A stretch of DNA of 64,000 bases, taken from assembly GCF_030678915.1 (NCBI RefSeq), contig NZ_JAUUTZ010000012.1:1-64000 (forward strand). The letters are read 5' to 3'. Positions 1,785 to 16,507 of the stretch are shown in pieces (the first letter of the stretch is position 1; every line of letters begins with the position of its first letter). The position numbers were made by a program, and so were the translations under genes. Below the pieces are notes generated by a model. It did no database searches. It was not told the origin of the DNA and saw nothing but the letters and a program-made list of their open reading frames with translations. This DNA is from Paracoccus wurundjeri (GTDB lineage Bacteria > Pseudomonadota > Alphaproteobacteria > Rhodobacterales > Rhodobacteraceae).

Positions 1785-2381
1785 TCAGTCGATATGCGCC
1801 GACAATGCCCGTCCAAGTGCGAATGCGCGCTGTTCAAGCAGCACCGGTGTTTCGCAGACATAGGTCAGGGACTGCTGGCGCTCGGTAAGGATACGCTGAT
1901 CCCAGTCAAGCGCCTCTTCCTCGGCGTCGATCGCGTCGAAATCGGGTTCCTCAGCGGCTTCCATTTCTTCCATCCGGGCGCGGCGTTCCTCTATCCTTTT
2001 GGAAATTGCGACCTGACTTTCGCCGTAACGCGCAATTCCGGCGATGATCGCGCTCCTCTCGGGCTCGATCCGATCGAAGATCGCCACCATAAGCGCCGTA
2101 AGCCTGGATGCATCCGCCTGTTTGGCGAATTCGGCAATTTCGGCCTCGGCCTCTTCCAGAGGCAGGCGGCGTTGCTCCAACCGGTCGGCCAGAGCGGCGA
2201 TCTCGGGATCCCTCGCCAATTCCTCGGTTTCTTCATCCGGTGGGGGTCCGGACCAGACCTGCCCAAGGGATAAATGCGGCTGCTTGCGTTGAATGCATGG
2301 CCAGGTCGGGTCGACGCCGCCGCTTGCCGCCAAAGCCGAGCCCGCTGCCATCGCAAGAATCAGTGTCAGGATATATTTCAT
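1785..2381 (-). CDS. Secreted protein of lut/PQQ-associated operon
   Basis: A 198-residue protein with an N-terminal signal peptide (MKYILTLILAMAAGSALA, cleavage after about 18-20), so probably periplasmic. I do not recognise a catalytic domain. The mature part has a conserved-looking start (WPCIQRKQPHLSLGQVW) and then a long charged helical region rich in E, R and A that could form a coiled coil; one Cys lies near each end. The start is set by an ATGA overlap with the upstream permease stop and by the signal peptide; an ATG eight codons earlier is less likely. It is the last gene of the leftward operon beginning at 6805. In the lut cluster of Methylorubrum several exported proteins of unknown function occupy comparable places. 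Confidence 0.8.
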   Translation of the reverse strand: MKYILTLILAMAAGSALAASGGVDPTWPCIQRKQPHLSLGQVWSGPPPDEETEELARDPEIAALADRLEQRRLPLEEAEAEIAEFAKQADASRLTALMVAIFDRIEPERSAIIAGIARYGESQVAISKRIEERRARMEEMEAAEEPDFDAIDAEEEALDWDQRILTERQQSLTYVCETPVLLEQRAFALGRALSAHID

Positions 2382-3199
2382 GCCCTTCCCTTTCTTCGCG
2401 CCCAAAGGCCCTTTGCCGGATCATACATGAATACCGCTGCCCCGAAGAACCCCGCCAAACAGCCTAAAACCACCCCCAAAGACAGCCAGTTCACCTGCAT
2501 ATACAGCGCGAAACGAATCAATTCGACAGCGTGGGTGAATGGGTTGAAGGCGCAGATATCGTGCAGGATCGTCGAACTCTCACGCATCCGCCACAAAGGA
2601 TAAAGCGCGGAAGAGGCAAAAAACATCGGAAAGATGACGAAATTCATCACTCCGGCGAAATTCTCGAGTTGCCTGATCGCCGAGGACAGGAACAGCCCCA
2701 TCGCCCCCAGCATCAGCCCCGACAGGATCAGGGCGGGCAGAACCGCCAGATAGCCGGATATGGGCGGGCGCACATCCCAGAACCACGCGATGGCAAGGAA
2801 TGTGTAGACCTGGATCACCGAGACCACCACGCCCGCGATCAGCTTCGCGCCCAGCAGAAACCAGCGGGGAAACGGGCTGACCAGCAGGGTCCGCATTGCC
2901 CCGGTCTCCCGGTCATAAACCATCGACAGCGAGGATTGCATCCCGTTGAACAGCTGAATCATCGCGCAAAGGCCGGGCGTCACATAGACCTCGTAAAGCA
3001 CATAGGTCTGATAAGGCTCGGTGATCGACAGGCCCAGAACGGCGCGGAACCCGGCGGCGAAGATGAACAGCCAGACCAGCGGTCTGACAAGCGCCGCCAG
3101 AAACCGCCCCCGCTGGTTGACGAAGCGCAATGTTTCACGGCGGGCAATACCAAGGAAGGCCGTAAACCATGCGCGGGGCGGAAAGGCGATATCGCTCAT
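2378..3199 (-). CDS. ABC transporter permease, PQQ/lanthanide-associated
   Basis: A 273-residue ABC-2 type inner-membrane permease with about six hydrophobic segments, including LVRPLVWLFIFAAGF near residue 40 and a C-terminal GVVLGCLAGFFGAAVFMYD. It resembles the permeases found next to PQQ-dependent alcohol dehydrogenase genes (PedC-type). It overlaps the ATPase gene upstream and the secreted-protein gene downstream by 4 bases each (ATGA), so the three are translationally coupled. In lanthanide-using methylotrophs the equivalent (LutF) serves lanthanide uptake; ABC-2 permeases otherwise more often export, so direction of transport is uncertain. Confidence 0.88.
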   Translation of the reverse strand: MSDIAFPPRAWFTAFLGIARRETLRFVNQRGRFLAALVRPLVWLFIFAAGFRAVLGLSITEPYQTYVLYEVYVTPGLCAMIQLFNGMQSSLSMVYDRETGAMRTLLVSPFPRWFLLGAKLIAGVVVSVIQVYTFLAIAWFWDVRPPISGYLAVLPALILSGLMLGAMGLFLSSAIRQLENFAGVMNFVIFPMFFASSALYPLWRMRESSTILHDICAFNPFTHAVELIRFALYMQVNWLSLGVVLGCLAGFFGAAVFMYDPAKGLWARRKGRA

Positions 3200-3918
3200 G
3201 CCGCGACACCGGTCAGATCCAGGAATGCCTGTGTCAGCCCCCGCTGGCCCGCGATCTCGGTGGCGGTTCCCCGCCGCAATACCTCGCCCCGATGCAGGAT
3301 CACCAGATCGTCTCCGGGCTGGATTTCATCCATGAGATGCGTGGCCCACAGGACCGAAACGCCATTCCTTGCGATCAGATCGCGGGTCAGTTCCAGCACC
3401 TCGGCCCGGGATTTGACATCAAGCCCCACCGTCGCCTCGTCCAGCAACAGGATATCCGGCTGATGAATCAGGGCGCGGGCGATCTCGGCCCTGCGCTGCT
3501 GGCCGCCCGACAGCGACGACACCCGGTCCCCGGCCTTTCCCTCCAGTCCGACCTGAGCAAGCATCTCGCCTATCCGCCCAGCCGCCTGACGGCGCGGAAT
3601 ACCATGCAGGCTGGCGTGATAGGCAAGGTTCTGGCGCACGGTCAGATCGGCATCCATGGCGCGGCTTTGGAACACCACGCCCAGACGGGCAAGCGCCTGT
3701 GCGGGTTGACGCCGCAGATCATAGCCCGCGACCCGGATCACACCGGAACTATTGTTGTAAAGCCGCGTGATCAGCGAAAACAGCGTGGTCTTGCCCGCGC
3801 CGTTCACGCCCAACAATGCCGTGAACCCGCTGCCTGGCACCGTCAGAGAAACATCCTTCAGCGCCTCGACGGCGCCGAAGCTGTGACTGACCCGATCTAT
3901 TTCAAGAGCTGCGGGCAA
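3196..3918 (-). CDS. ABC transporter ATPase, PQQ/lanthanide-associated
   Basis: A 240-residue ATP-binding subunit. Visible motifs: Walker A GVNGAGKTT near residue 38, Q-loop VVFQS, signature LSGGQQRRAEIARAL near 140, Walker B ILLLDEAT, and the switch His in WATHLMDE. It pairs with the permease that overlaps it by 4 bases. The family matches ATPases of PQQ-dependent alcohol dehydrogenase systems and LutE of lanthanide uptake. It starts 6 bases after the acidic-protein gene. The assignment as an ABC ATPase is firm; the substrate is inferred from context. Confidence 0.93.
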   Translation of the reverse strand: MPAALEIDRVSHSFGAVEALKDVSLTVPGSGFTALLGVNGAGKTTLFSLITRLYNNSSGVIRVAGYDLRRQPAQALARLGVVFQSRAMDADLTVRQNLAYHASLHGIPRRQAAGRIGEMLAQVGLEGKAGDRVSSLSGGQQRRAEIARALIHQPDILLLDEATVGLDVKSRAEVLELTRDLIARNGVSVLWATHLMDEIQPGDDLVILHRGEVLRRGTATEIAGQRGLTQAFLDLTGVAA

Positions 3919-3924
3919 TGTTGG

Positions 3925-4494
3925 CTACTGAATGTTGAACACGGCTTGCTGCGTTTCACCGGAAGATCCGGGGATCGACAAGGTATAGCGCCCGGGAACA
4001 ATCGCGATAAAGCTCATGCTGGCGGTGCCGGCATCATCGAATTCAAGGCTGTGTACCCCCATCGGCCGGATCTCGATATCGTTGATGACAACCTCGTTCA
4101 CCCAGACGGCGCGGAAGAAATCCCCACCGGAAAGAGCCAGTTCCTGACTGCCATCCGCATTGATATCGATCCGGTAATAACCGCCGGATTTCAGGGTATA
4201 CTCGTCGCTCGCCACCGGCTGCCCCGAGGCAAGCGTCAGCGGCGCCAGGTCGGTGCGGTTGTCCCGTGCCAACACTCCGGAAAAGCCATAATCGAACTTG
4301 CCGGCCGCCTCGTGAACGCCTTCGCCGCCGCCACCGGCTTCCTCATCGTCGTCGTCCTCATCATCGTCCTCCTGAGTGGCAACTGCCGCCGCGTCGGAAT
4401 TTTCCGTTGCGGAATCGCCCCCGGTTTCGTCCTGCGCAGCGGCCGGCACGGCCAGCCCGGCCAGGATCATCAGAATTGCCAGTATACGGGTCAT
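3925..4494 (-). CDS. Secreted protein with very acidic segment
   Basis: A 189-residue protein of unknown function. Residues 1-20 form a signal peptide ending AAAQ. Residues about 22-60 are low-complexity and acidic, with the run EDDDEDDDDEEAGGGGEG. Residues about 65-189 look like a compact beta-rich domain (FDYGFSGVLARDN, YTLKSGGYYRIDI, IVPGRYTLSIPGS), reminiscent in pattern of cupredoxin-like or immunoglobulin-like folds, but I cannot assign a family. It lies between beta-propeller and ATPase genes in the lut-like operon. A periplasmic acidic stretch beside a lanthanide-dependent dehydrogenase system invites a metal-binding hypothesis, which the sequence alone does not prove. Confidence 0.8.
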   Translation of the reverse strand: MTRILAILMILAGLAVPAAAQDETGGDSATENSDAAAVATQEDDDEDDDDEEAGGGGEGVHEAAGKFDYGFSGVLARDNRTDLAPLTLASGQPVASDEYTLKSGGYYRIDINADGSQELALSGGDFFRAVWVNEVVINDIEIRPMGVHSLEFDDAGTASMSFIAIVPGRYTLSIPGSSGETQQAVFNIQ

Positions 4495-4540
4495 GTCTCT
4501 CTCCTTGAATTTCCGAATCCTTCAAACCACGCGGATTCCC

Positions 4541-4644
4541 TTTTCTTCTTCTTTGTCCAAATACCTCCGGGGGTCACCGGCAGGCGCGCCACTGGTTCGA
4601 GAACCAGCCGGCGACGGGCAGCGCCCCGGCCATCGCGGGACGCA
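4541..4644 (+). repeat. Dispersed hairpin repeat, copy A
   Basis: Begins with TTTTCTTCTTCTTTG, continues CCAAATACCTCCGGGGGT and ends CCATCGCGGGACGCA, the same borders as copies at 42890, 63291 and, inverted, 36084 and 55558. Its apex is enlarged and carries its own small hairpin, CTGGTTC/GAACCAG. It lies between two codirectional operon genes, so it may affect mRNA stability or partly terminate. Confidence 0.85.
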
Positions 4645-4646
4645 AA

Positions 4647-5606
4647 TCAGTCCGGAGCGACAACCACCCCCCAGGGCTGCTGCCCCACCGGCACGGATTT
4701 CACCACCTCGAGCGATTCGACATCGATCACCGAGACATCGTTCGAATTGCCGTTGGTCGTGAACAAAAGCTTCTCATCCGGAGTGAAAGCCATCTGCCAG
4801 ACGCGCTGCCCGACCAGCAGATATTCCAGCACCTCGTCGGTTTCTCCGTCGATCACCGCAACCCGGTTCGCCGGGCCAAGGGCCACGAAGACGCGGCTGC
4901 CATCCGATGTGACCCGCACACCCACCGGCTGAATAGCCTCTGGCAGAACACCGGGGATCTCGAATTCGATCTTATGCACGATCTCCTGCGTCGACGGATC
5001 GATCACGCTGACCGTTCCGCCGATTTCCGCACTGACATATAGCTTGCTGCCATCGTGATTATATTCCGCAAAGCGCGGACGGCTGTCGACCAGCACATTG
5101 GCGGTGATCTCGAATGTCTCGCTGTCGATGAAATGGGCCATATTGGTGGTTTCAGAGGTATTGATCACCACCTTGCCATCCGGGCTGACGCCCATCCCCT
5201 CGGGTTCGACGCCCACCGGGATCTCGGCCAGCACCTGATGGGTTTCCGTATCCACGACCGTCACCAGGTTATCGTCCTCGTTTGCGATATAAAGCGGGTT
5301 TCCGGACGGGTGCAGCACGAATAATTCGGGATCGGGACCGGACGGAAGCGTGTGGGTCTCTTCCATCGTCTCCGGGTCGAAAACCCGCACCAGATCATCG
5401 TCCGAGGCACAGACATAAAGTTCCTTGCCGTCCGGGCTGATGGTGATGCCACGCGGGCGGTTGCCGACAGGATAGCTGCCGATCACCTCGAGCGTTTCGC
5501 TGTCGAGAACGGTGACATCGTTGCCTTTCTCGTTACTGACGAACACCCGGTTGGCCAACACAGGAGTCGCAGCAAGGCAAAGTACAAGCGTCAGAAGATG
5601 TTTCAT
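4647..5606 (-). CDS. PQQ-associated YVTN beta-propeller protein
   Basis: A 319-residue periplasmic protein: signal peptide (MKHLLTLVLCLAATPVLA), then seven or so repeats of about 42 residues in the pattern V-x-D-x-E-T-x-x-V...IPVG..P.G...SPDGK, the hallmark of YVTN-type beta-propellers. It matches the family found with PQQ-dependent alcohol oxidation. In Methylorubrum a beta-propeller of the lut cluster (LutD) has been reported to bind lanthanides. I chose the start at 5606 because GAGGTGA lies just upstream; an in-frame ATG at 5627 would lie inside the preceding gene. Follows the binding-protein gene by 8 bases. Confidence 0.9.
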   Translation of the reverse strand: MKHLLTLVLCLAATPVLANRVFVSNEKGNDVTVLDSETLEVIGSYPVGNRPRGITISPDGKELYVCASDDDLVRVFDPETMEETHTLPSGPDPELFVLHPSGNPLYIANEDDNLVTVVDTETHQVLAEIPVGVEPEGMGVSPDGKVVINTSETTNMAHFIDSETFEITANVLVDSRPRFAEYNHDGSKLYVSAEIGGTVSVIDPSTQEIVHKIEFEIPGVLPEAIQPVGVRVTSDGSRVFVALGPANRVAVIDGETDEVLEYLLVGQRVWQMAFTPDEKLLFTTNGNSNDVSVIDVESLEVVKSVPVGQQPWGVVVAPD

Positions 5607-5614
5607 ATCACCTC

Positions 5615-6805
5615 TCAGAAGGTACATTCGGTTTCGGAGCGGTCGATGCCCAATGTGTCAAGCTGACTGACCTGATGCAGATATTCGTCCTGCGGGCTGA
5701 CCGAGGTCAGCAGCAGGTCGGTTGCCAGCAGGATGGGCTGACGAACCTGATGGTCCCAATCGCGCATGGTCAGTTTTTGTCCCTTGAACCCGGCGACTTC
5801 GAACTGGTCCGACAGCATGAATTCCTTGAGCGTAGCGGGATCGCTGGACTGGCTGCGCGTCGCCGCCTCGCCGATCATGCGAAGGGCAAGCCATGTCAGG
5901 TAATCCTCGTCCCGCATCGGACGGTTGGTCAGTTTCTCGAAGCGGTTCTGGAACTGGCTCGCGCCCCATGCTTCCATGGCCGCATGCCATGCACGGGGCA
6001 TCAGCCCGGCCGAACCGGTAACGGGCCGCGGATCCCATGTCTGATAAGGCAGATATCCGGCGAAGATCCCGGCGTCATCGGCAGCGACCACGACGTCATG
6101 TTCGGCCGCGCGCTGGGTAAAGACCGGCATCTGCTTCTGGACCTGCACATGACCGGAATCGGTCCGGCGGGCGCCTCCGGTATCCTCGTAAACCCGCTCT
6201 TCCACGATCTTCGCGCCGAATTTCGTTGCCGAGCGGCGCAATGCCTCGGCGAAAGCGGTATCTTCGGGATGACTGCCCTCGATCAGGAACCAGCGGGACC
6301 ATTTCTTCCACATGAGGAACTGCGCCAGACCATCAGCAAGCATCGCGTGACTGGGCGCGACGTGAATCGTGTTCGCCCGGCAATCCGCGCCGCGCAGGTT
6401 GTCGCCATGTGCGGTCGCATTGAACAGCATCACCCGATCGCCCGCGTGATCGGCAAGCGACAGCATGGTTTCGTCATCGGCCAGAATCACAATGAACTCC
6501 ACGCCCTCGTCGATCAGGCGATCCATTTCACCCGCAGCGGCGTCAGGCGTCGTGACGACCTCCTCCGCTTCGAAATCCTGGCCCATGAAACGGCCCGTGG
6601 TATCGTTATCCTCGATAGCCAGACGCGCGCCGGCAAAGCCCAGATCCTCGGGTGGCAATTCCAGTCGGGAAATGGGCGGCAGGCCGGCTTCCTCGACGCG
6701 CAGAACCGCCGAGGGAATAAGCGTCACCTCGGGTTGATCCTGCGCCGCGACCGGAGCGGACATCATCCAGACTCCAGCCAAAAGTAGTATGATTCTCTTG
6801 AACAT
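5615..6805 (-). CDS. Periplasmic binding protein, PQQ/lanthanide-associated
   Basis: A 396-residue secreted protein (signal peptide MFKRIILLLAGVWMMSAPVAAQ) with the two-lobe plan of type-1 periplasmic binding proteins: a first lobe to about 130 with VEFIVILADDETML, a hinge near ATAHGDNLRG, and a second lobe with WKKWSRWFLIEGSHPED. It matches substrate-binding proteins linked to PQQ-dependent alcohol dehydrogenases, the family of LutA. It is the first gene of a six-gene leftward operon and would deliver substrate to the ATPase/permease pair. Two conserved-looking cysteines occur (GADCRAN and C-terminal ETECTF). Ligand identity is inference. Confidence 0.88.
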   Translation of the reverse strand: MFKRIILLLAGVWMMSAPVAAQDQPEVTLIPSAVLRVEEAGLPPISRLELPPEDLGFAGARLAIEDNDTTGRFMGQDFEAEEVVTTPDAAAGEMDRLIDEGVEFIVILADDETMLSLADHAGDRVMLFNATAHGDNLRGADCRANTIHVAPSHAMLADGLAQFLMWKKWSRWFLIEGSHPEDTAFAEALRRSATKFGAKIVEERVYEDTGGARRTDSGHVQVQKQMPVFTQRAAEHDVVVAADDAGIFAGYLPYQTWDPRPVTGSAGLMPRAWHAAMEAWGASQFQNRFEKLTNRPMRDEDYLTWLALRMIGEAATRSQSSDPATLKEFMLSDQFEVAGFKGQKLTMRDWDHQVRQPILLATDLLLTSVSPQDEYLHQVSQLDTLGIDRSETECTF

Positions 6806-6986
6806 TTCGTTCCTCTCCCACTCCGTATACTGCGGGCAGGAAGGTCCTGCGACAAGCCGGTTTATCTTCCCGGTTGTATCGGGAACATTTGGCTACAGCT
6901 TTGGTCTTATGGACGTCGATCAATGCGGCGTGCAATTTCGTTCCGGCCCGCCATTCACGGCGAATTACTGTAAAGGAACAGGGAAT
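6806..6986. promoter_or_regulatory. Divergent promoter region, lut-like operon and mxaD-like gene
   Basis: These 181 bases separate two divergent transcription units. They contain the sequence ATCGGGAACATTTGGCTA (6878-6895), which matches 16 of 18 positions of a sequence in the xoxF upstream region, and so may hold a shared regulator site. The ribosome-binding site for the rightward gene is AAAGGAACAGGG ahead of ATG 6987. Confidence 0.6.
6878..6895. promoter_or_regulatory. Candidate shared operator, site 1
   Basis: ATCGGGAACATTTGGCTA. It lies 73 bases from the lut-like operon start and 91 bases from the mxaD-like start. A near-identical sequence occurs at 12630-12647 upstream of xoxF in the same orientation relative to the leftward genes. 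No regulator is encoded nearby. Confidence 0.4.
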
Positions 6987-7547
6987 ATGAAACTGAAAGC
7001 GCTTGCCGCCGTCGCATTTGGCGCGGCTTTGGTATTCGCGAGTATGGCGAATGCGCACGGTCCCTCGCGGCAAAAAGTCGAGATGAGTGTGACGCTGAAT
7101 GCCAGTCCGGACGAAGTTTGGGAATTAATCGGTAATTTCAACGACATGAGCTGGCATCCCGCTATCGATTCCACCGAGATGACACCGGAAGGCGCGCCCG
7201 CCGACGTGCCCGATGAATCCACCCGTGTGCTGCATCTGAAGGCCGATGAAGGCGATCCGACCATCACTGAACAGCTGATGGCGATCGATCCCGAGAAACA
7301 CATGTATAAATACATGATCACCGAAGTCGCCGTCGAGGTCCTGCCGGTCACGAATTACTCGTCGACCCTGCAGGTCAATGACAAGGACGGCAAGGCCGAG
7401 GTGGTCTGGAAAGGCGGGTTCTATCGCGGTTTTCCGAATAACAATCCACCGGCAGAACTGAATGACGAAGCTGCCATCGCTGCGGTCGAGGGCATCTATC
7501 AGGCCGGTATCGATGCATTGACCGAGCAATTCGGAAAGGCGGAGTAA
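6987..7547 (+). CDS. MxaD-like SRPBCC-family periplasmic protein
   Basis: A 186-residue protein with a signal peptide (MKLKALAAVAFGAALVFASMANA) and one SRPBCC/START-like domain: VEMSVTLNASPDEVWELIGNFNDMSWHPAI is the typical first strand and helix, and the long C-terminal helix begins near AAIAAVEGIYQAGI. This is the class of MxaD, a periplasmic protein that in Methylorubrum aids electron transfer between methanol dehydrogenase and its cytochrome. I chose the internal ATG at 6987 because it begins the signal peptide and has AAAGGAACAGGG in front. Followed 3 bases later by a beta-propeller gene, probably cotranscribed. Confidence 0.85.
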   Translation: MKLKALAAVAFGAALVFASMANAHGPSRQKVEMSVTLNASPDEVWELIGNFNDMSWHPAIDSTEMTPEGAPADVPDESTRVLHLKADEGDPTITEQLMAIDPEKHMYKYMITEVAVEVLPVTNYSSTLQVNDKDGKAEVVWKGGFYRGFPNNNPPAELNDEAAIAAVEGIYQAGIDALTEQFGKAE

Positions 7548-7550
7548 ACC

Positions 7551-8516
7551 ATGCGGCGCGCACCGGCATCCATGATACGCCGGGTGCGCCTGTTCATTAT
7601 GGCGGTATTTTTGCCATTTTCTCCGGCAGCCGCCGGGGATCTGGCGTTTATCACGTCACAGAACGGCAATGCCGTCTCCATTGTCGATCTGAACAGCCAT
7701 GAAATCATTGCGGATAGCCCCGTGGACGGCGCTCCGGCTCCGGTCGCTTATGATCCGCGCGGCGGGCGTGCCTATGTGATTTCAGCCGATACCGGACGGC
7801 TTAGCGTATTGGACGAAGAGGCCCGTATCATCGATCGGCGGGAGCTGGGCGAAGGTGCCTTTGGCGTCGCAGTCGCTCCGGATGGCGGCGTATTCGTGAC
7901 CGATTGGTACCGTGGAAGGCTTTTGCGGCTGGATGGCGCGCTGCAAGAGCTATGGGCCGTTGATACGGGCGCAGCCCCGGCAGGGGTAGCGGTCAGCAAT
8001 GACGGGCTGCTGGTCGCAACCGCGGATCGCGACGACAATCAGGTCAGCCTGTTCGACAGCCGCACCGGACGGCTGATCCGCAAGATAAAAACCGCGGGCG
8101 AACATCCCTTTGCCGTCACCTTTCACGCAGGCCGGATCTGGACCGCCGATGTCCAAAGCGACACCGTTTCCGTCATCGATCCCCTGAAGGGGCAACTTGT
8201 CGGCCAGATTGAAACCGGCAGTCACCCTTACGGCGTCGCCTTTGCTGGCGGACACGGGTTTATCACCAATCAATATGCCAGCACACTGACAGTTTTCGAC
8301 CCCGACAGCCTTGAAGTTCTGGAAGAGATCGAAGTTGGAGATTATCCCGAAGGCATCGCCCCCCTGCCCGATGGTAGCGGCGTGGCCGTCGCCAATTGGG
8401 ATTCCGATACGGTCGTGATTGTCGATGCGAAAACATTTGAAATTACGGCAGAAATCGAAACCCCCGCAGGACCACGCGCTTTTGGGCAGTTCACGGGTCG
8501 ACAGGTTCAGCCCTGA
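7551..8516 (+). CDS. Second YVTN beta-propeller protein
   Basis: A 321-residue protein with a signal-like N terminus (RLFIMAVFLPFSPAAAG) followed by repeats of about 40 residues with the beta-propeller pattern (AFITSQNGNAVSIVDLN, EVGDYPEGIAPLPDGSGVAV, SDTVVIVDAKTFEITAEI). It is a paralogue in plan of the propeller at 4647-5606 but shorter in its repeats and clearly divergent. Probably periplasmic and linked to methanol oxidation by context. Its 3' end overlaps the convergent CXXCW gene by 26 bases. No catalytic residues are evident, so a binding or scaffold role is likely. Confidence 0.88.
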   Translation: MRRAPASMIRRVRLFIMAVFLPFSPAAAGDLAFITSQNGNAVSIVDLNSHEIIADSPVDGAPAPVAYDPRGGRAYVISADTGRLSVLDEEARIIDRRELGEGAFGVAVAPDGGVFVTDWYRGRLLRLDGALQELWAVDTGAAPAGVAVSNDGLLVATADRDDNQVSLFDSRTGRLIRKIKTAGEHPFAVTFHAGRIWTADVQSDTVSVIDPLKGQLVGQIETGSHPYGVAFAGGHGFITNQYASTLTVFDPDSLEVLEEIEVGDYPEGIAPLPDGSGVAVANWDSDTVVIVDAKTFEITAEIETPAGPRAFGQFTGRQVQP

Positions 8517-9021
8517 CCAGATCCGGGCCAAGCGTCTCTTGCCACGCATCCGTGCCGCCAGAAAACCACATCACCTGCGTGTAACCCATCGAAACAGCCC
8601 GTTTCGCAGCATTCCAGCTCATCCAGCAATCGGCGCGGCAGAAGATCACCAACGGAGCAGCCTTGTCACCGCCCGTCACCTGCTCCAGACCTTTTGCCAG
8701 CCGGGATTCCTCGGCAGAGGACAGGTTCTGATAGCCGGTATCCCACAGCCAGACCGCGCCGGGAATCGTATCGTGGCGCGGTTCATGCCAGAACGTATCC
8801 TCGGGCAAATTTTCGGGTTTCCGGGTGCGAGGATAGACATCGACGAAAGGGATGCCCTCGTCATGCAGATCCAGGGCCCGCTCCGCCTCGATGGTCTCTG
8901 CCCCGGCGAGCGTTTCGGGTACCGGGGCGTTATAAGGTTCGCCCCGGTAGCCCTGCGGCTCGGGTATCTGCGCCAGAACCGGGGCGGCCGCAAGTATGGC
9001 AGCCGCCGCCAGTCGGATCAT
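8491..9021 (-). CDS. PQQ-associated CXXCW motif protein, rhodanese-like
   Basis: A 176-residue secreted protein (signal MIRLAAAAILAAAPVLA). The diagnostic motif CRADCW is near residues 128-133 in VIFCRADCWMSWNAAKR, in the loop where rhodaneses carry their catalytic Cys; the surrounding GYTQVMWFSGGTDAWQE is rhodanese-like. Proteins with this motif accompany PQQ-dependent alcohol dehydrogenases; their reaction is not known, though thiol-disulfide chemistry is plausible. It is the last gene of the leftward xoxF operon and overlaps xoxJ by 4 bases (ATGA). It also overlaps the convergent beta-propeller gene. Confidence 0.9.
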   Translation of the reverse strand: MIRLAAAAILAAAPVLAQIPEPQGYRGEPYNAPVPETLAGAETIEAERALDLHDEGIPFVDVYPRTRKPENLPEDTFWHEPRHDTIPGAVWLWDTGYQNLSSAEESRLAKGLEQVTGGDKAAPLVIFCRADCWMSWNAAKRAVSMGYTQVMWFSGGTDAWQETLGPDLVRAEPVDP

Positions 9022-9833
9022 TGCAGCAATTCCTTGCCGTAATCGTCAACCAGCGGCACTCCTGCATCCCGCAAAAGCTGATCGATCTCGTCCTTGTGAC
9101 GGCGCAGCAAGCTGTTCAGCTCGCGCTTCCATTCCTGTTCTTCGGGACGGACGCCCATGGTGATGCGATAAAACATCTTGGGCCCGGACGTCTCTTTCAG
9201 AAGCGGCGTGAACTGCAGATCGGGATCGTCCTTGATCCGGGGCCCAGCCACGGGCCCCCACAAAACCGCAGCATCAAGTGCGCCGTCGCTGACGTCTGTC
9301 AGCAAATCGCCGATTGGATCCATGACCCGGCGATCCACCATCAGATCCGTGCCCTTCATATCCTTGGCCAGTCCCGCCTGGGCCATGATCGTGGCCGGGG
9401 GCGTGCCTGCGACGACCCCGATAGGATGGTCCTTTAGCGCTGGATCGGTCAGATGATCGACCGCCGCCAATTCGTTATCCTTGCGGGTCACGATCCCATA
9501 GACAGAGGTGTAGTAATGATTGGTGTTCTGCACCAGCTCGTCACCCTGCGCATAACCCATCACCACGTCACAGGTGCCTGCGCGCAACGTCTTGGCGATG
9601 AACCCCATTCCCGAGGGAAACCACGTGTAAGTCACCGGCCTGTCCATGATCTTTCCGAACAGATCGGCCAGCTTGTTCTCGAACCCCGAGCCGTCCTTGA
9701 CCGACATCGGCGCATTCGCGGGATCCGCGCAGACGCGGAACTGCGTGGTCGAACGCAGATCGGCCACCTGCGCGGTGGCCAGCCCGGACAGGCTGAGCCA
9801 CAATGTCAACGCCGTGGTGAAGATTTGCCTCAT
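9018..9833 (-). CDS. xoxJ: XoxJ-like periplasmic binding protein
   Basis: A 271-residue protein: signal peptide MRQIFTTALTLWLSLSGLATAQ, then a type-2 solute-binding fold (RVCADPANAPMSVKDGSGFENKLADLFGKIM at the start; GVVAGTPPATIMAQAG and DAAVLWGPVAG later). This matches the quinoprotein-dehydrogenase-associated binding proteins MxaJ/XoxJ. XoxJ is thought to help mature or activate XoxF rather than import a solute. I chose the start at 9833, one base after the cytochrome gene stop, because it opens the signal peptide; longer in-frame starts run into the cytochrome gene. Overlaps the CXXCW gene by 4 bases. Confidence 0.92.
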   Translation of the reverse strand: MRQIFTTALTLWLSLSGLATAQVADLRSTTQFRVCADPANAPMSVKDGSGFENKLADLFGKIMDRPVTYTWFPSGMGFIAKTLRAGTCDVVMGYAQGDELVQNTNHYYTSVYGIVTRKDNELAAVDHLTDPALKDHPIGVVAGTPPATIMAQAGLAKDMKGTDLMVDRRVMDPIGDLLTDVSDGALDAAVLWGPVAGPRIKDDPDLQFTPLLKETSGPKMFYRITMGVRPEEQEWKRELNSLLRRHKDEIDQLLRDAGVPLVDDYGKELLQ

Positions 9834-9834
9834 G

Positions 9835-10422
9835 TCACATCGACATACAGGAATCTTCGGCGGCGGTAAACTCGTCAGGTTTGTCGGCCTTTTTCGGCGG
9901 ACGCCCCCGCGGAATCGAGTCGGTGCCACGCGCCAGAAGATAAACATAGATGTCATCGACATAGCACCAGACATTCTTGTTCGTGCCGAAAGCCGGCATC
10001 ACCTGATTTGCAGAATTGCTCACCTCTTGCTTGCCCGAAGCGACGACCTCCTGATAATCGTAGTAATCCATCCGCAGGACCGAATTCTTCAGTGCTGGCG
10101 CATAGGTCGAGCCCTCACCATCCGGTCCGTGACAGACATGGCATTCCGCGTGATAACGGCGGTAGCCCGAAAAGGTGGCGTAATCGACTGTGCCATCCTC
10201 TTCGACCTTGAAGGTCGGAATGCCTTCCTCGTTATACCAGCGACCGTCCGTCATCTCGGACGGGGTGATGTCATGACCGCTTGGCATGACAGTCTGATCT
10301 TCTTTCAGTTCGACTTCTTCATCGCTTGGCTGAGCGTTTTCACTGGTTTCATCCTGCGCGATGGCCGTGCTGGCCAGGGTCGCGCCAAGAACCAGCGCCG
10401 CAAGGCTGGTGATGGCTTTCAT
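9835..10422 (-). CDS. Methanol-metabolism c-type cytochrome, XoxG-like
   Basis: A 195-residue periplasmic cytochrome. Signal peptide (to about residue 22), an acidic linker, then a single haem site C94-H-V-C97-H98 and a likely axial Met at M142 (NQVMPAFGT). Two extra cysteines, C153 (NVWCYV) and C192 (DSCMSM), fit the four-cysteine subgroup related to cytochrome c-553i of Paracoccus. It should accept electrons from XoxF. It lies directly downstream of xoxF and is preceded by GGAGGAAACTCGACC. The intergenic hairpin at 10470-10494 may lower its expression relative to xoxF. Confidence 0.93.
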   Translation of the reverse strand: MKAITSLAALVLGATLASTAIAQDETSENAQPSDEEVELKEDQTVMPSGHDITPSEMTDGRWYNEEGIPTFKVEEDGTVDYATFSGYRRYHAECHVCHGPDGEGSTYAPALKNSVLRMDYYDYQEVVASGKQEVSNSANQVMPAFGTNKNVWCYVDDIYVYLLARGTDSIPRGRPPKKADKPDEFTAAEDSCMSM

Positions 10423-10469
10423 GGTCGAGTTTCCTCCAAATGTCTAACGCCCGCTCTCCTCAGACGTAA

Positions 10470-10494
10470 CCGCCCCAGTTTATCGCCGGGGCGG
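10470..10494 (-). terminator. Hairpin between xoxF and cytochrome gene
   Basis: CCGCCCC (10470-10476) pairs with GGGGCGG (10488-10494) across an 11-base loop. No T run follows on the minus strand, so it is more likely an mRNA-stabilising or attenuating hairpin than a full stop. Confidence 0.5.
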
Positions 10495-10549
10495 CCCTTT
10501 CACAGATCAACTTTGCTCTTTCGGAACGAAAGTATTAGCCCGAGGTGGA

Positions 10550-12481
10550 TTATTCCGCCGGAGCTTCTTCTTCGGCTGGCGCCTCTTCTGCCGGTGCCTC
10601 CTCTGCGGGCGCTTCCTCGGCAGGGGCCGCCTCAGTCTCAGCAGGTGCGGCTGCTTCACCGGCGGATGCCTGTACGTCGTCACCCGGAAGTTCGAACACC
10701 GTCAACTGACCGCCGAGTTCGGTATAGTCGCTAAGTGCGGCATAGCCGCCCACGGCGCCCAGACCGTCATTCGGGTTGGTCAGACCGGCAGCAAGACCGA
10801 TACCGGCCCAGCCACCGACACCGGACAGAACAGCGATATACTGCTTGTCGTTATGGGTGTAGGTCGTCACGTTGCCGATGATGCCCGATGGGGTCTTGAA
10901 CTTGTAAAGCTCGTCACCCGTTTCCGCATCAACCGCTTTCAGATAACCTTCAAGCGTACCGTAGAAAACTACCCCGCCAGCCGTCGCAAGCGCGCCGGAC
11001 CAGACCGAGAACTGCTCGGGCAGCGACCACTTGATCTCGCCATTGATGTTATCCCAGGCGATGAAGTTACCCATGCCACCATGACTGTCAGGTGCCGGAT
11101 ACATCGACAGCGTTGCGCCGACATAAGGCTGACCTGCGGTATAGGCGACGCGGAACGGTTCGTAGTCCATGCAAACATGGTTGGTCGGCACGTAGAACAG
11201 GCCGGTATCGGGTGAGTAGGCGGCCGGTTGCTGGTCCTTGGTGCCAAGTGCGGCCGGGCAGATACCGGTGCTGTTGGTATCCTCGCCATTCTGTTCGGTC
11301 GAGAATTCGGCGACCACCGCCGGGCGGCCATAAGTCTCGGATTCCGGATCCATATCGACGCCGCTGGTCCAGTTCACAGCCGGATCGTATTTCTCGGCCA
11401 CCAGAAGCTCGCCGCTTTCACGATCCAGCGTATAGGCCAGGCCGTTCCGGTCGAAATGGGTCAGAAGCTTGCGCATCTCGCCATCGATTTCCTGATCGGT
11501 CAGGATCATCTCGTTGACGCCGTCAAAGTCCCATTCGTCATGGGGCGTCATCTGATAGAACCACTTGGCCATGCCGGTATCGGCATCGCGAGCCATGATG
11601 GTCATGGACCATTTATTGTCGCCCGGACGCTGCGACGGGTTCCAGGTCGAGGGGTTCCCGGTGCCATAATAAATCAGGTTCAGCTCTGGATCATAGGAAT
11701 ACCAGCCCCAGGTAGTGCCGCCGCCGATCTTCCACTGATCGCCTTCCCAGCTTTCCAGCGAGCTGTCCGGACCGATGGGCTTGCCCAGATGTGTGGTTTG
11801 CTCGGGGTCGACCAGCATTTCTTCATCAGGGCCGGTCGAATAGGCTTTCCAGACTTCCGAGCCATCGGCAAGGCTATAGGCCGTCACACGACCCCGGACA
11901 CCGTATTCACCGCCTGAAACGCCGACGATAACCTTGTCGCCAACCGGCAGCACCGTCGCGGTATTGGTTTCGCCAACGGCCGGATCACCGGTCTTGACCT
12001 TCCATTTTTCCTCGCCTGTCTTGGCATCAAGCGCCACCAGCGTGGTATCGGCCTGATGCATCAGGATCAGGCCGTCGGCATAGGCGACGCCGCGGTTGAC
12101 CGTGTCACAGCACATCACAGCAATGACTTCGGGATCCTGCTGGGGCTTGTAGCTCCACAGGATCTTGCCGTCCTCGTTCAGATCCAGCGCATAGACGTTG
12201 TTCGGGAACGGCGCATGGATATACATGATCCCGTCGATGATCAGCGGGCCGCCTTCATGACCGCGCAGAACCCCGGTCGAGAAGCTCCATGCAACCCGCA
12301 GATCGCCGACATTGTCCTTGTTGATCTGATCCAGTTCCGAATAACGGGTATTGGCATAGTCGCCGGTCTGGATTCCCCATTGGCCAGGCGTCTCGATCGC
12401 CTCTGTGACACTTTCATTGGCATATGCCGCAGCGCCTGATAGCAGCAGCGCGACCGCAGCGCTGTTGAATAGGTGTTTCAT
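10550..12481 (-). CDS. xoxF: XoxF-type lanthanide-dependent methanol dehydrogenase
   Basis: A 643-residue periplasmic PQQ eight-bladed propeller enzyme that oxidises methanol. Signal peptide [21 protein letters not shown]. The vicinal cysteines C124-C125 ([11 protein letters not shown]) form the ring near PQQ. Expected metal ligands are E192 (GGEYG), N276 (TGNPSTW) and D318; D320 in [11 protein letters not shown] is the extra aspartate that marks lanthanide-dependent XoxF as against calcium-dependent MxaF. The family is usually near 600 residues; the excess is a C-terminal tail of about 40 residues made of APAEE-type repeats. Start chosen at the signal peptide with GGAGGAG upstream. First gene of a four-gene operon. 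Confidence 0.97.
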
Positions 12482-12582: not shown

Positions 12583-12630
12583 TCGCCCTGCCAATTCCCC
12601 CTAAAGTCTGATGGTTTTTTGGCAGGGCGA
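12583..12630. promoter_or_regulatory. 12-bp inverted repeat upstream of xoxF
   Basis: TCGCCCTGCCAA (12583-12594) and TTGGCAGGGCGA (12619-12630) are perfect inverted repeats with a 24-base spacer. The T run lies in the spacer, not after a stem, so this is not a normal terminator for fghA. It could be a two-site operator or a terminator with a large loop. Confidence 0.5.
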
Positions 12631-12647
12631 TCGGGAATATTTGGCAA
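12630..12647. promoter_or_regulatory. Candidate shared operator, site 2
   Basis: ATCGGGAATATTTGGCAA, 149 bases upstream of the xoxF start. Sixteen of 18 bases match 6878-6895 in the lut-like/mxaD-like divergent promoter. Note that it lies only a few bases from the fghA stop codon. Confidence 0.4.
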
Positions 12648-12651
12648 TCGC

Positions 12652-13485
12652 CTAAATCAGCCGTTCCGCATGCCACATCACATGGTCATTCATGAAGGTC
12701 TGAACGAAGAAATAACTGTGATCATAACCCGGTTGCATGCGGAACTGACCGGGCTGACGGCGGGCCATCATGGCATGGGCAAGCGATTCGGGTTTCAGCA
12801 GATCAAGAAACTGGTCGCTGCTGCCCTGATCGATCAATATTTCGCCCGGATAGCCTTTTTCGGTCATCAGCACGGTCGAATCATGGGCACGCCATGTGGA
12901 CTCATCGCTGCCCAGATAGGCGCCAAGCTGCTTTCTGCCCCAATCGGACTCGGTCGGGTTTGCAATCGGCGCAAAGGCCGAAACGGATTTATACCGCTCG
13001 GGATGGGTCATGGCGATGGTCAATGCGCCGTGACCGCCCATCGAGTGACCGGTGATCCCCATCCGATCACGATCAACAGCGAAATTATCGCCAAGCAATT
13101 CGGGAAGTTCATGCACGATATAATGCCACATCTGGAAATGCGGCTTCCACGGATCCTGCGTGGCGTTCACATAAAAGCCTGCACCCTTACCCAGATCATA
13201 AGCCTCATCATCGGCGACTTCATCGCCGCGCGGCGAGGTATCGGGAAAGACGATGGCGATCCCTGCATCGGCGCATAACTGCTGGGCAGCGGCTTTGGTC
13301 ATGGCGTTTTCATGGGTGCAGGTCAGGCCCGACAGATACCACAGAACCGGAACGCGAGCATGTTCCGCCAGTTCCGGCATGAACAAGCCAAAGGTCATAT
13401 CGGTGGCGGTTGCCTGCGATTTATGGCGATATACGCCCTGCGTACCACCAAAGCTGCGGTTTTCGGAAAGGGTCTCAAGGCTCAT
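12652..13485 (-). CDS. fghA: S-formylglutathione hydrolase
   Basis: A 277-residue cytoplasmic alpha/beta hydrolase that splits S-formylglutathione to formate and glutathione, the third step of glutathione-linked formaldehyde oxidation. The catalytic triad is visible: S148 in GHSMGG, D224 in DQGSSDQF and H256 in GYDHSYFF. Other esterase-D signatures include YLSGLTCTHEN and the length, which is typical. It is the last gene of a leftward run from flhA through the ClpP-like and acetyltransferase genes, overlapping the latter by 11 bases. The upstream gene flhA makes its substrate. Confidence 0.97.
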   Translation of the reverse strand: MSLETLSENRSFGGTQGVYRHKSQATATDMTFGLFMPELAEHARVPVLWYLSGLTCTHENAMTKAAAQQLCADAGIAIVFPDTSPRGDEVADDEAYDLGKGAGFYVNATQDPWKPHFQMWHYIVHELPELLGDNFAVDRDRMGITGHSMGGHGALTIAMTHPERYKSVSAFAPIANPTESDWGRKQLGAYLGSDESTWRAHDSTVLMTEKGYPGEILIDQGSSDQFLDLLKPESLAHAMMARRQPGQFRMQPGYDHSYFFVQTFMNDHVMWHAERLI

Positions 13486-14696: not shown

Positions 14697-15824
14697 TCAG
14701 TAAAGCACGACTGACCGAATCGACTCGCCGTTATGCATCAGGTCGAACCCTTTGTTGATGTCGTCCAAAGGCATGGTGTGGGTGATCATCGGGTCGATCT
14801 CGATCTTTCCGTCCATGTACCAATCGACGATTTTCGGCACGTCGGTACGGCCACGCGCGCCGCCGAATGCGGTGCCTTTCCAGACCCGGCCAGTGACAAG
14901 CTGGAACGGCCGGGTGCTGATCTCGGCTCCGGCGGCCGCAACGCCGATGATCACCGACTGGCCCCAGCCGCGATGGGTGCATTCCAGCGCGTCACGCATG
15001 ACCTTGGTGCTGCCGGTGGCGTCAAAGCTGTAATCCGCGCCGCCGATCTGATCGAACGGGGTTTTCGTCATCTCGACGATTTCCTGAACGACATTCTCGA
15101 CATTCTTCGGGTTGACGAAATGGGTCATGCCGAATTTCTCGGCCATTTCCTTCTTGTCGTCATTCAGATCGACACCGATAATCATATCGGCCCCGGCAAG
15201 GCGCAGGCCCTGAATTACGTTCAGGCCAATGCCACCCAGACCAAAGACCACTGCTTTCGCGCCGATCTCGACCTTGGCGGTATTGATGACCGCGCCAATA
15301 CCTGTCGTCACGCCGCAACCGATATAGCAGATCTTGTCGAAAGGCGCGTCTTCGCGAACCTTGGCGACCGCGATTTCCGGCAGAACCGTGTAATTCGAGA
15401 AAGTCGAGCAACCCATGTAGTGATGGATCACTGTTCCGTCATCAAGGCTGAAACGCGAGGTTCCATCGGGCATCAGCCCCTGCCCTTGCGTCGCGCGGAT
15501 CCGGGTGCAGAGATTGGTCTTGCCCGACAGACAGGACGCACATTCGCGGCATTCGGGCGTGTAAAGCGGAATGACATGATCGCCGGGTTTCACGGATTTA
15601 ACGCCCGGGCCAACCTCGACCACGACACCGGCGCCTTCATGGCCCAGAATCGCGGGAAACAAGCCTTCCGGGTCGGCGCCCGAGCGGGTGAATTCGTCGG
15701 TGTGGCAGATGCCGGTCGCCTTGATCTCGATCAAGACCTCGCCTTCCTTCGGCCCTTCGAGATTGACCTCTATCACTTCCAGCGGTTTGCCTGCCTCGAA
15801 GGCTACGGCGGCACGGGTTTTCAT
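14697..15824 (-). CDS. flhA: S-(hydroxymethyl)glutathione dehydrogenase
   Basis: A 375-residue class III alcohol dehydrogenase (also known as adhC) that oxidises S-hydroxymethylglutathione to S-formylglutathione with NAD. Catalytic zinc ligands lie in [14 protein letters not shown] and [12 protein letters not shown], structural zinc in the [16 protein letters not shown] cluster near residues 95-110, and the Rossmann site in [20 protein letters not shown] near 195. Length is typical. In Paracoccus denitrificans flhA is essential for methanol growth. It lies 98 bases downstream of gfa with a hairpin between them. The name collides with a flagellar flhA, which this is not. Confidence 0.97.
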
Positions 15825-15922: not shown

Positions 15923-16507
15923 TCAAGCAGGAAGCGCACCGGATTTTTTCGCCACATGGGTCGCAATCGCGTCCATCAGCGGTGGCGACAAAGCGTCATA
16001 AGGCTCGAGTCCGATCTCTCGCAGACGCGACCTGATGCCATCCATACGCGACGCATCGACGCCGGATTCGATGATCGAGCTTACGAATGCGGCAAATTCC
16101 GGCGCGGACCAGCCCGCTTCCGAGGAAAGCTCGGTATGGACGAAATCAAGGCCGTAGAACGGGTGGTCCTTGTTTTCGATGCGGCCATACATGTGAACGC
16201 CGCAATCGCGGCAACGGTAACGCTGGATCGCCGCCGAGGCATCGACAATTTCAAGCTTGTCCGCGTTTTCGATGACTTCCACCGCATCGCGCGAAACGAC
16301 GGCAATCTGGCTGAAGACCGCCCCGTCGGGTTTCCAGCATTTGGTGCAGCCGCAAACATGATTATGCGCTGTCTGGGCTCCGACGCGAACCTTCACCGGA
16401 TTGCTGGCGCAATGACAGGTGAGTGTGCCGCCCGAAAAGTTTGAGTTACCCGATTTGATGCCGTTATCAACGGCGGGATGAATTAGCACCCCATCTGTAT
16501 TCGCCAT
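15923..16507 (-). CDS. gfa: S-(hydroxymethyl)glutathione synthase, Gfa family
   Basis: A 194-residue zinc protein of the Gfa family, first found in Paracoccus denitrificans, linked to combining formaldehyde with glutathione. Cysteines for two zinc sites are visible: [11 protein letters not shown] and [12 protein letters not shown] in the first half, and [13 protein letters not shown] near residue 115. Length fits the family (about 190). It is the first of the gfa-flhA-fghA set and faces left with them. Whether Gfa is a true catalyst or a glutathione carrier has been debated in the literature. Confidence 0.95.

Follow-up and report, generated by a model that had tools for sequence, protein, structure and literature searches.

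A lut-type gene module joined to the xoxF methanol dehydrogenase locus of Paracoccus wurundjeri

The window considered here, a stretch of 64,000 nucleotides from Paracoccus wurundjeri (assembly GCF_030678915.1, contig NZ_JAUUTZ010000012.1, denoted C4 below), carries a set of lut-type genes directly beside the genes of the methanol dehydrogenase XoxF, an enzyme that depends on pyrroloquinoline quinone (PQQ). Genes of the lut type are known from lanthanide (Ln) utilization in other bacteria, and the questions treated here concern the composition of the block, its distribution among relatives, and the tasks its products may fulfill. Published work is cited by PubMed Central identifiers.

The lut block and its xoxF neighborhood

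A sequence-only reading of the window had described a leftward run of binding protein, propeller, acidic secreted protein, ATP-binding cassette (ABC) ATPase, ABC permease, and a further secreted protein, overlapping by four bases in part, and in the same block an MxaD-like gene, a second propeller, and the series xoxF-cytochrome-xoxJ-CXXCW. All of these genes were found at their places, the leftward run corresponding to lutA-B-C-E-F-G, and two 4-base overlaps were confirmed, lutF/lutE at 3196-3199 and lutG/lutF at 2378-2381 (if lutG starts at the ATG at 2381). The features are listed below in window coordinates, with bit scores given for family profiles; X-clade denotes the one of two LutA clades that is associated with XoxF, P-clade the other, associated with a PedH-like dehydrogenase.

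5615..6805, minus strand: lutA, periplasmic binding protein (Peripla_BP_6); TIGR03863, 478 bits, cut-off 413.6; X-clade LutA in the tree
4647..5627, minus strand, likely start ATG 5606: lutB, YVTN propeller; TIGR03866, 527.2 bits, cut-off 287.3
3925..4494, minus strand: lutC, secreted protein whose N-terminal region is acidic and variable and whose core, about residues 74-189, is conserved and predicted to be cupredoxin-like; no family above cut-off
3196..3918, minus strand: lutE, ABC ATPase; TIGR03864, 329.5 bits, cut-off 302.25
2378..3199, minus strand: lutF, ABC-2 type permease (PF01061); TIGR03861, 405 bits, cut-off 241.35
1785..2381, minus strand: lutG, secreted protein, predicted to be all-helical, with invariant Cys29 and Cys176; no family above cut-off
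6987..7547 (likely start 6987), plus strand: MxaD-like SRPBCC protein, divergent from lutA; domain match
7551..8516, plus strand: second YVTN propeller, following the MxaD-like gene; TIGR03866, 99.2 bits, under the family cut-off
8491..9021, minus strand: CXXCW gene, PQQ-associated rhodanese-like protein; TIGR03865
9018..9833, minus strand: xoxJ, periplasmic binding protein; TIGR03871
9835..10422, minus strand: xoxG-like c-type cytochrome; TIGR03874
10550..12508, minus strand, likely start ATG 12481: xoxF, lanthanide-motif methanol dehydrogenase; TIGR03075, 764.8 bits, cut-off 480
12652..13485, minus strand: fghA, S-formylglutathione hydrolase; family match
14697..15824, minus strand: class III alcohol dehydrogenase / S-(hydroxymethyl)glutathione dehydrogenase; family match
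15923..16507, minus strand: gfa, S-(hydroxymethyl)glutathione synthase; family match

Of the six proteins of the run, four exceed the cut-offs of families for PQQ-dehydrogenase-associated ABC transport; LutC and LutG match no family above a cut-off. The 3' ends of the second propeller gene and the CXXCW gene converge and overlap by 26 bases (window 8491-8516).

XoxF has its best solved match in XoxF 6oc5, and its ten-residue motif (including DFD) contains the second aspartate, a residue of the lanthanide site. The xoxG-xoxJ neighborhood agrees with clade XoxF5, an assignment by neighborhood and not by a clade tree. Contig C56 of the same genome encodes a PQQ dehydrogenase 52% identical to XoxF that reads HDEWDYAGVN, i.e. 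with alanine at the lanthanide position, and is therefore probably a calcium-type enzyme, as MxaF. The C-terminal tail of XoxF (window 10550-10700, minus strand) is rich in Ala, Pro, and Glu, shows an EEAPAEEAP-type repeat, and is hypervariable in some Paracoccus (L168-L225). This acidic tail was rejected as a lanthanide feature because its length differs widely among species: some have no tail, others one of well over 100 residues.

Upstream of xoxF (window 12600-12660, minus strand) lies a candidate operator: of 54 Paracoccus-group loci, 53 have ACTTT at this place, 32 have ACTTTAGGG, and five have the palindrome CCTAAGACTTTAGG. An operator common to xoxF and lutA was rejected: a matrix built from 17 sites has no consistent match within 350 bp upstream of lutA, where the match ranked first in five of 59 loci and second (after the site of xoxF itself or another) in four, and was not among the matches listed in 20; a frequent match just inside lutA is signal-peptide coding sequence. 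The string GCCAAAT[A/G]TTCCCGAT, a pattern drawn from its two sites, occurs exactly at window 6878-6893 (minus strand, in the gap between lutA and the MxaD-like gene) and 12630-12645 (minus strand, upstream of xoxF).

Distribution of the genes among relatives

The best 80 of 104 relatives found, here called named loci, include 55 with a Paracoccus title, P. denitrificans among them, and the closest of those listed belongs to Paracoccus onubensis (LutA 98%). All 80 contain lutB, 78 each lutE and lutF, 73 lutC, and 69 lutG; an xoxF with the motif HDEWD[FY]DG lies in the stretch examined in 72. Since lutA, B, C, E, and F are jointly present in 73 of the 80, the grouping of these genes is not a product of chance. 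The earlier proposal of a Paracoccus-type lut module integrated with the dehydrogenase locus is upheld: the module is joined to xoxF and has its nearest named counterpart in P. onubensis.

A second sample comprises 198 genomes of Rhodobacteraceae-family relatives, which are kin and not independent of each other; the presence lists used for co-occurrence were compiled by hand from the searches. LutA was counted only above its cut-off (57 genomes; 72 of the 198 match at E 0.001), with second copies below the cut-off in G039, G153, and G168 still counted as copies. XoxF is scored in 25 genomes (G008 and G083 by fragments; G139, at 41%, and matches of 52-53% were dropped), and G184 was dropped from the MxaD-like count. 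A PedH-like dehydrogenase, defined by at least 80% identity to one reference, is scored in 39 (G002, at 57%, was dropped). The best solved matches of the PedH-like enzyme are 6zcv and 6zcw ('quinoprotein ethanol dehydrogenase'), which we take to be PedE and PedH of Pseudomonas putida, and its motif REGWD[YF]DG was read in 31 neighboring family loci and two more loci.

LutA is found without XoxF in 34 of its 57 genomes. Homologues mostly lacking xoxF had been named by the sequence-only reading as the pattern that would speak against it, and taken literally this is the pattern observed; the lanthanide reading nevertheless stands, since 32 of the 34 carry a PedH-like dehydrogenase, with the lanthanide Asp motif read directly in 27 of the 32. 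Altogether, 55 of the 57 LutA genomes possess XoxF or a PedH-like enzyme (exceptions G113 and G191), and conversely 55 of the 58 genomes with either enzyme possess LutA (exceptions G008, G083, and G098). In G113, LutA adjoins a third type of PQQ dehydrogenase (L129); this type also adjoins LutA in L127, and its motif, NDPFDYDATN, has Asp at the lanthanide position as well.

The remaining genes fall into two groups. LutC is encoded in 22 of the 23 genomes with LutA and XoxF and in 30 of the 34 that have LutA but no XoxF. LutG is present in all 23 of the former and the MxaD-like protein in 20 of them, and neither occurs in any of the 34. At the level of loci, 14 of the 25 X-clade loci contain lutG, all 41 P-clade loci lack both lutG and the MxaD-like gene, and the opposite-strand propeller accompanies the MxaD-like gene in 77 of 83 loci and is found in none of the 97 without it (window included). 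Because of this split in co-occurrence and neighborhood, LutG, the MxaD-like protein, and the second propeller look like XoxF accessories, and LutA-B-C(-E-F) like a general module for lanthanide enzymes, an impression weakened by linkage and shared ancestry. Over the 198 genomes, LutG and XoxF coincide in 24, with LutG by itself in G047 and an XoxF fragment by itself in G008. This pattern suggests that LutG serves XoxF rather than the pump.

Alternatively, LutG could be a subunit specific to the X-clade transporter, which we regard as rather unlikely. Within LutA genomes its presence coincides with XoxF and hence with X-clade LutA, lutG overlaps lutF by four bases in the window, and in Methylorubrum growth of the mxaF lutG double mutant resembles that of mxaF lutA (PMC7391723). 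However, lutG stands upstream of adh, on the opposite strand and apart from the transporter, in 15 loci, and G083 (C74:1582) has LutG and an XoxF fragment without any LutA. The LutG model is confident and all-helical (mean predicted local distance difference test score, pLDDT, 93.3) and contains the invariant cysteine pair; a Foldseek search at E up to 0.001 gave no match, and no credible solved relative was found by sequence.

The acidity of LutC resides mainly in the variable N-terminal region. A poly-acid run (at least four D/E) was rejected as a core feature; it is optional, since among sequences with the anchor motif it is present in 21 of 53 from the family and in 47 of 71 from the named loci. 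The AlphaFold model reaches a pLDDT of 90-96 per block from residue 81, Foldseek matches it to a copper nitrite reductase at E 4.8e-6, the top Z score in structure comparison is 10.2, over 97-111 residues, and the core is predicted to adopt a cupredoxin fold; by sequence, no credible solved relative was found. Among 35 sequences no conserved Cys and His copper ligands were detected: no column exceeds 23% Cys, His reaches at most 74% (H148), and Met at most 83% (M145). The positions D114, E151, and E180 are D or E in all 35. A core without the conserved copper Cys and with (near-)invariant acidic positions makes Ln binding by LutC plausible.

Tasks of the module and alternative explanations

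It is considered probable that the block unites the lut module of Paracoccus with a XoxF locus for methanol oxidation and that it is organized in two functional layers. In the first, LutA, the LutB propeller, and the cupredoxin-like LutC would bind Ln3+ or an Ln complex in the periplasm and hand it over to the ABC transporter LutE/LutF at the inner membrane; such a layer would work for either lanthanide-type PQQ dehydrogenase, XoxF or PedH-like. In the second, LutG, the MxaD-like protein, the second propeller, XoxJ, and the CXXCW protein, none of them supposed to be a part of the transporter, would help XoxF to mature or to couple to its cytochrome. Ln3+ would pass the outer membrane on a path that does not involve LutH, and transport in Paracoccus would be directed inward. 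In relatives, lut and ped mutants have been shown to have phenotypes in Ln-dependent growth and in Ln uptake (PMC7391723, PMC6839425).

Several findings weigh against this explanation. Strong lutE/lutF matches are absent beside lutA-B in 11 of the 25 X-clade family loci for which 9.3 kb or more of DNA downstream was covered (L080, L081, L087, L100, L104, L105, L106, L110, L114, L125, and L128; two X-clade loci with short DNA stand outside the 25) and in six of the 41 P-clade loci. Nine of the 11 have lutC beside them, and L101, also X-clade, has lutE alone without lutF. A separate lutC-E-F set, sought in 20 further stretches from nine genomes, was found only in G106, and in the single-lut genomes G001, G066, and G088 lutE/F were not located in the stretches examined. 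LutC is missing in one of 23 LutA genomes with XoxF and four of 34 without. The link between LutG and XoxF is broken in G047, where LutG (C16:469045) occurs without XoxF or LutA, and in G008, where the XoxF fragment lacks a LutG; the pattern may also partly reflect linkage, as lutG is often located in the xoxF neighborhood, and the genomes are not independent events. Finally, LutF belongs to the ABC-2 permeases, which are mostly parts of exporters, and this sits oddly with import.

The permease type would also suit a transporter for non-lanthanide cargo, i.e. PQQ, an alcohol, or a metabolite, in line with older family names such as the NCBIfam designation of TIGR03861, 'alcohol ABC transporter' permease. 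Such a cargo is scarcely probable. Loss of the transporter in P. putida affects growth via the lanthanide enzyme PedH, but neither growth via the calcium enzyme PedE nor growth on oxidized carbon substrates (PMC6839425), and in the genomes compared here the transporter co-occurs with lanthanide-motif enzymes.

In the LutA tree (for all trees, reading frames that were too long were trimmed to their final portion), a single change separates sequences in XoxF context (19 beside xoxF, three assigned by MxaD-like or xoxG/J neighbors) from 31 that adjoin a PedH-like gene. When loci are labeled by LutA clade, one change is counted for LutB, three for LutC, four for LutE, and five for LutF. All six dual-enzyme genomes (XoxF plus PedH-like) contain at least two LutA genes, compared with four of 49 single-enzyme genomes, and in all six LutA is represented in both clades. 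The distance from X-type LutA to xoxF amounts to about 95 kb in G130 and about 17 kb in G161. The two clades may stand for enzyme-specific delivery or only for co-inheritance and co-regulation.

Enzyme-specific delivery is central to a different view of the transporter, in which LutA-B-C-E-F would be not mainly an importer but an energized maturation machine in the periplasm, loading Ln3+ (or Ln-PQQ) into the dehydrogenase with which it is paired. The analogy is NosDFY, the maturation complex of nitrous oxide reductase; of the parts of such a complex, an ABC-2 permease and an ATPase are present in the module. The permease type, the split of LutA and of LutB into two clades that correspond, with a single change in each case, to the partner enzyme or its context, and the LutA of both clades in all dual-enzyme genomes would fit such a machine, since for a common metal pool one transporter would be enough. 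Yet lutA, lutE, and lutF mutants of Methylorubrum show periplasmic deposits of lanthanum (La; PMC7391723), transporter-dependent cytoplasmic uptake is cited in PMC6839425, and the pairing of enzyme and LutA may equally be due to shared inheritance or regulation; moreover, LutC, E, and F segregate less cleanly, and lutE/F are not beside lutA-B in several loci. A loading machine is therefore judged improbable. A literature search, which left most subscription journals outside its reach and whose silence shows little, found no paper joining NosDFY with lanthanide, none joining ABC-2, lanthanide, and XoxF, and none linking cupredoxin, PQQ-dependent, and lanthanide-binding; for lutG and lanthanide, only the Methylorubrum papers were relevant by title among the matches listed.

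An extended form of the loading idea is speculative and quite unlikely: each lanthanide dehydrogenase would have its own Lut lineage, even within one cell, and this lineage would supply that enzyme with metal or mature it in the periplasm with no shared pool. LutC would then be a cupredoxin fold adapted to lanthanide instead of copper, and LutG a factor for the maturation of XoxF specifically.

The two-layer explanation also presumes a non-LutH route through the outer membrane. The absence of a visible TonB receptor and lanmodulin, claimed by the sequence-only reading, was confirmed for the DNA at hand: there is no TonB receptor in the first 24 kb of the window, no PF00593 match on contig C4, and no pair of EF loops in window frames below 700 aa. 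That no TonB receptor exists in the genome was rejected, as it has 13 PF00593 matches, none of them LutH-like (the best 24% over 314 aa). With a receptor located 430 bases after lutG in L149 as the query (used instead of the LutH of Methylorubrum extorquens AM1; E 1e-10), a LutH-type receptor was found in 0 of the 198 family genomes and in 13 of 38 control genomes (two of this family and 36 that have LutA and belong to other families in the class, including the genome from which the query was taken). The 80 named loci and the family loci showed no receptor gene. Another, non-LutH receptor could serve Ln uptake; the Methylotuvimicrobium receptor shares less than 20% identity with the M. extorquens receptors (PMC6839425).

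With PF13499 (E up to 1), two secreted EF-hand proteins were found on other contigs of the genome, one on C2 (L252, at about 32.6 kb) with three canonical loops and an incomplete fourth and one on C14 with two loops. They reach 38.8 (C2) and 23.8 bits with the LanM model NF053806 (cut-off 135), which was scored on these candidates and not on the whole genome, and neither has the proline at loop position 2 that is a hallmark of lanmodulin. For these two reasons they are probably not lanmodulin; a lanthanide-binding role may remain.

According to the sequence-only reading, the two secreted proteins, LutC and LutG, may do part of the work of the missing receptor or lanmodulin. The lack of a LutH-type match in the genome and the family sample, the acidic, secreted nature of LutC, and the low scores of the EF-hand candidates would accord with this. 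The comparison does not support the claim, which is very improbable, since the lutA-B-C-E-F-G cluster of L149 encodes both proteins together with its LutH-like receptor. In addition, LutG is predicted to be all-helical and follows XoxF, LutC occurs in most LutA genomes without XoxF (30 of 34), and Methylorubrum has lutC, lutG, lutH, and lanM together (PMC7391723).

Comparison with known lanthanide systems

The families and gene order of the block point to a Paracoccus form of the known lut/PedA1A2BC lanthanide system of Methylorubrum and P. putida. The label of an incompletely described system, given by the sequence-only reading, is fair for LutC, LutG, and the second propeller. The comparison adds the absence of a LutH-type receptor across the family sample and divides the lut genes into a transport core and XoxF accessories, a split that can be tested. 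Concrete genes are supplied by the 55 named Paracoccus records, including P. denitrificans, together with the PQQ dehydrogenase with calcium-type motif in the genome of the window, and LutC and LutG are two uncharacterized secreted proteins that are candidates for lanthanide handling.

In the Roseobacter-group strain La 6 and in Rhodobacter sphaeroides, the xoxF5 locus shows, as in Paracoccus, xoxF-xoxG-xoxJ with adhI (PMC5934484). The words 'ABC' and 'transporter' have no occurrence in the main text of that paper, so that lut genes are not discussed there under these words.

The operon PedA1A2BC of P. putida KT2440 consists, like its Paracoccus counterpart, of genes for a binding protein, a propeller, an ATPase, and a permease, and for P. 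putida, too, no LutH homologue was found (PMC6839425, PMC12997753). It supports La-dependent growth via PedH, and the four-gene operon is without lutC and lutG (PMC6839425; this concerns the operon, lutG elsewhere in P. putida not having been sought). Unlike the Paracoccus module, it serves PedH and not XoxF.

In AM1, the lut cluster includes, as in Paracoccus, a binding protein, exported protein(s), an ATPase, a permease, and an exported lutG product, in the same order by locus numbers (PMC7391723). Both the lut genes and an MxaD homologue have a part in the growth with La that depends on XoxF1: lutE and lutF mutants do not grow on methanol with La until suppressors appear, lutG mutants show a lag and then slow growth, and for the MxaD homologue a rate of 0.11 per h on La is given versus 0.16 in the wild type (PMC7391723). 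Orthology to the AM1 proteins rests here on families, gene order, and literature, not on a comparison with AM1 sequences. In contrast to AM1, which has lutH and lanM, the Paracoccus genome is without a LutH-type match, its EF-hand proteins stay below the lanmodulin cut-off, and its lut genes are placed beside xoxF and the genes of glutathione-dependent formaldehyde oxidation.

Sinorhizobium and Bradyrhizobium belong to another bacterial order than Paracoccus. Both share with it lutA, B, E, F, and G and an xoxF clustered with glutathione-pathway genes, and S. meliloti 2011 is reported to have no obvious LutH (PMC12628762). The Sinorhizobium loci found in this analysis differ in a gfa match downstream of lutF and in lutG, which is located upstream of adh or beyond the stretch examined; their layout is otherwise closely similar to that of Paracoccus. 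Given the lut and ped systems of Methylorubrum, P. putida, Sinorhizobium, and Bradyrhizobium, the locus of P. wurundjeri therefore appears to be of an already known kind.

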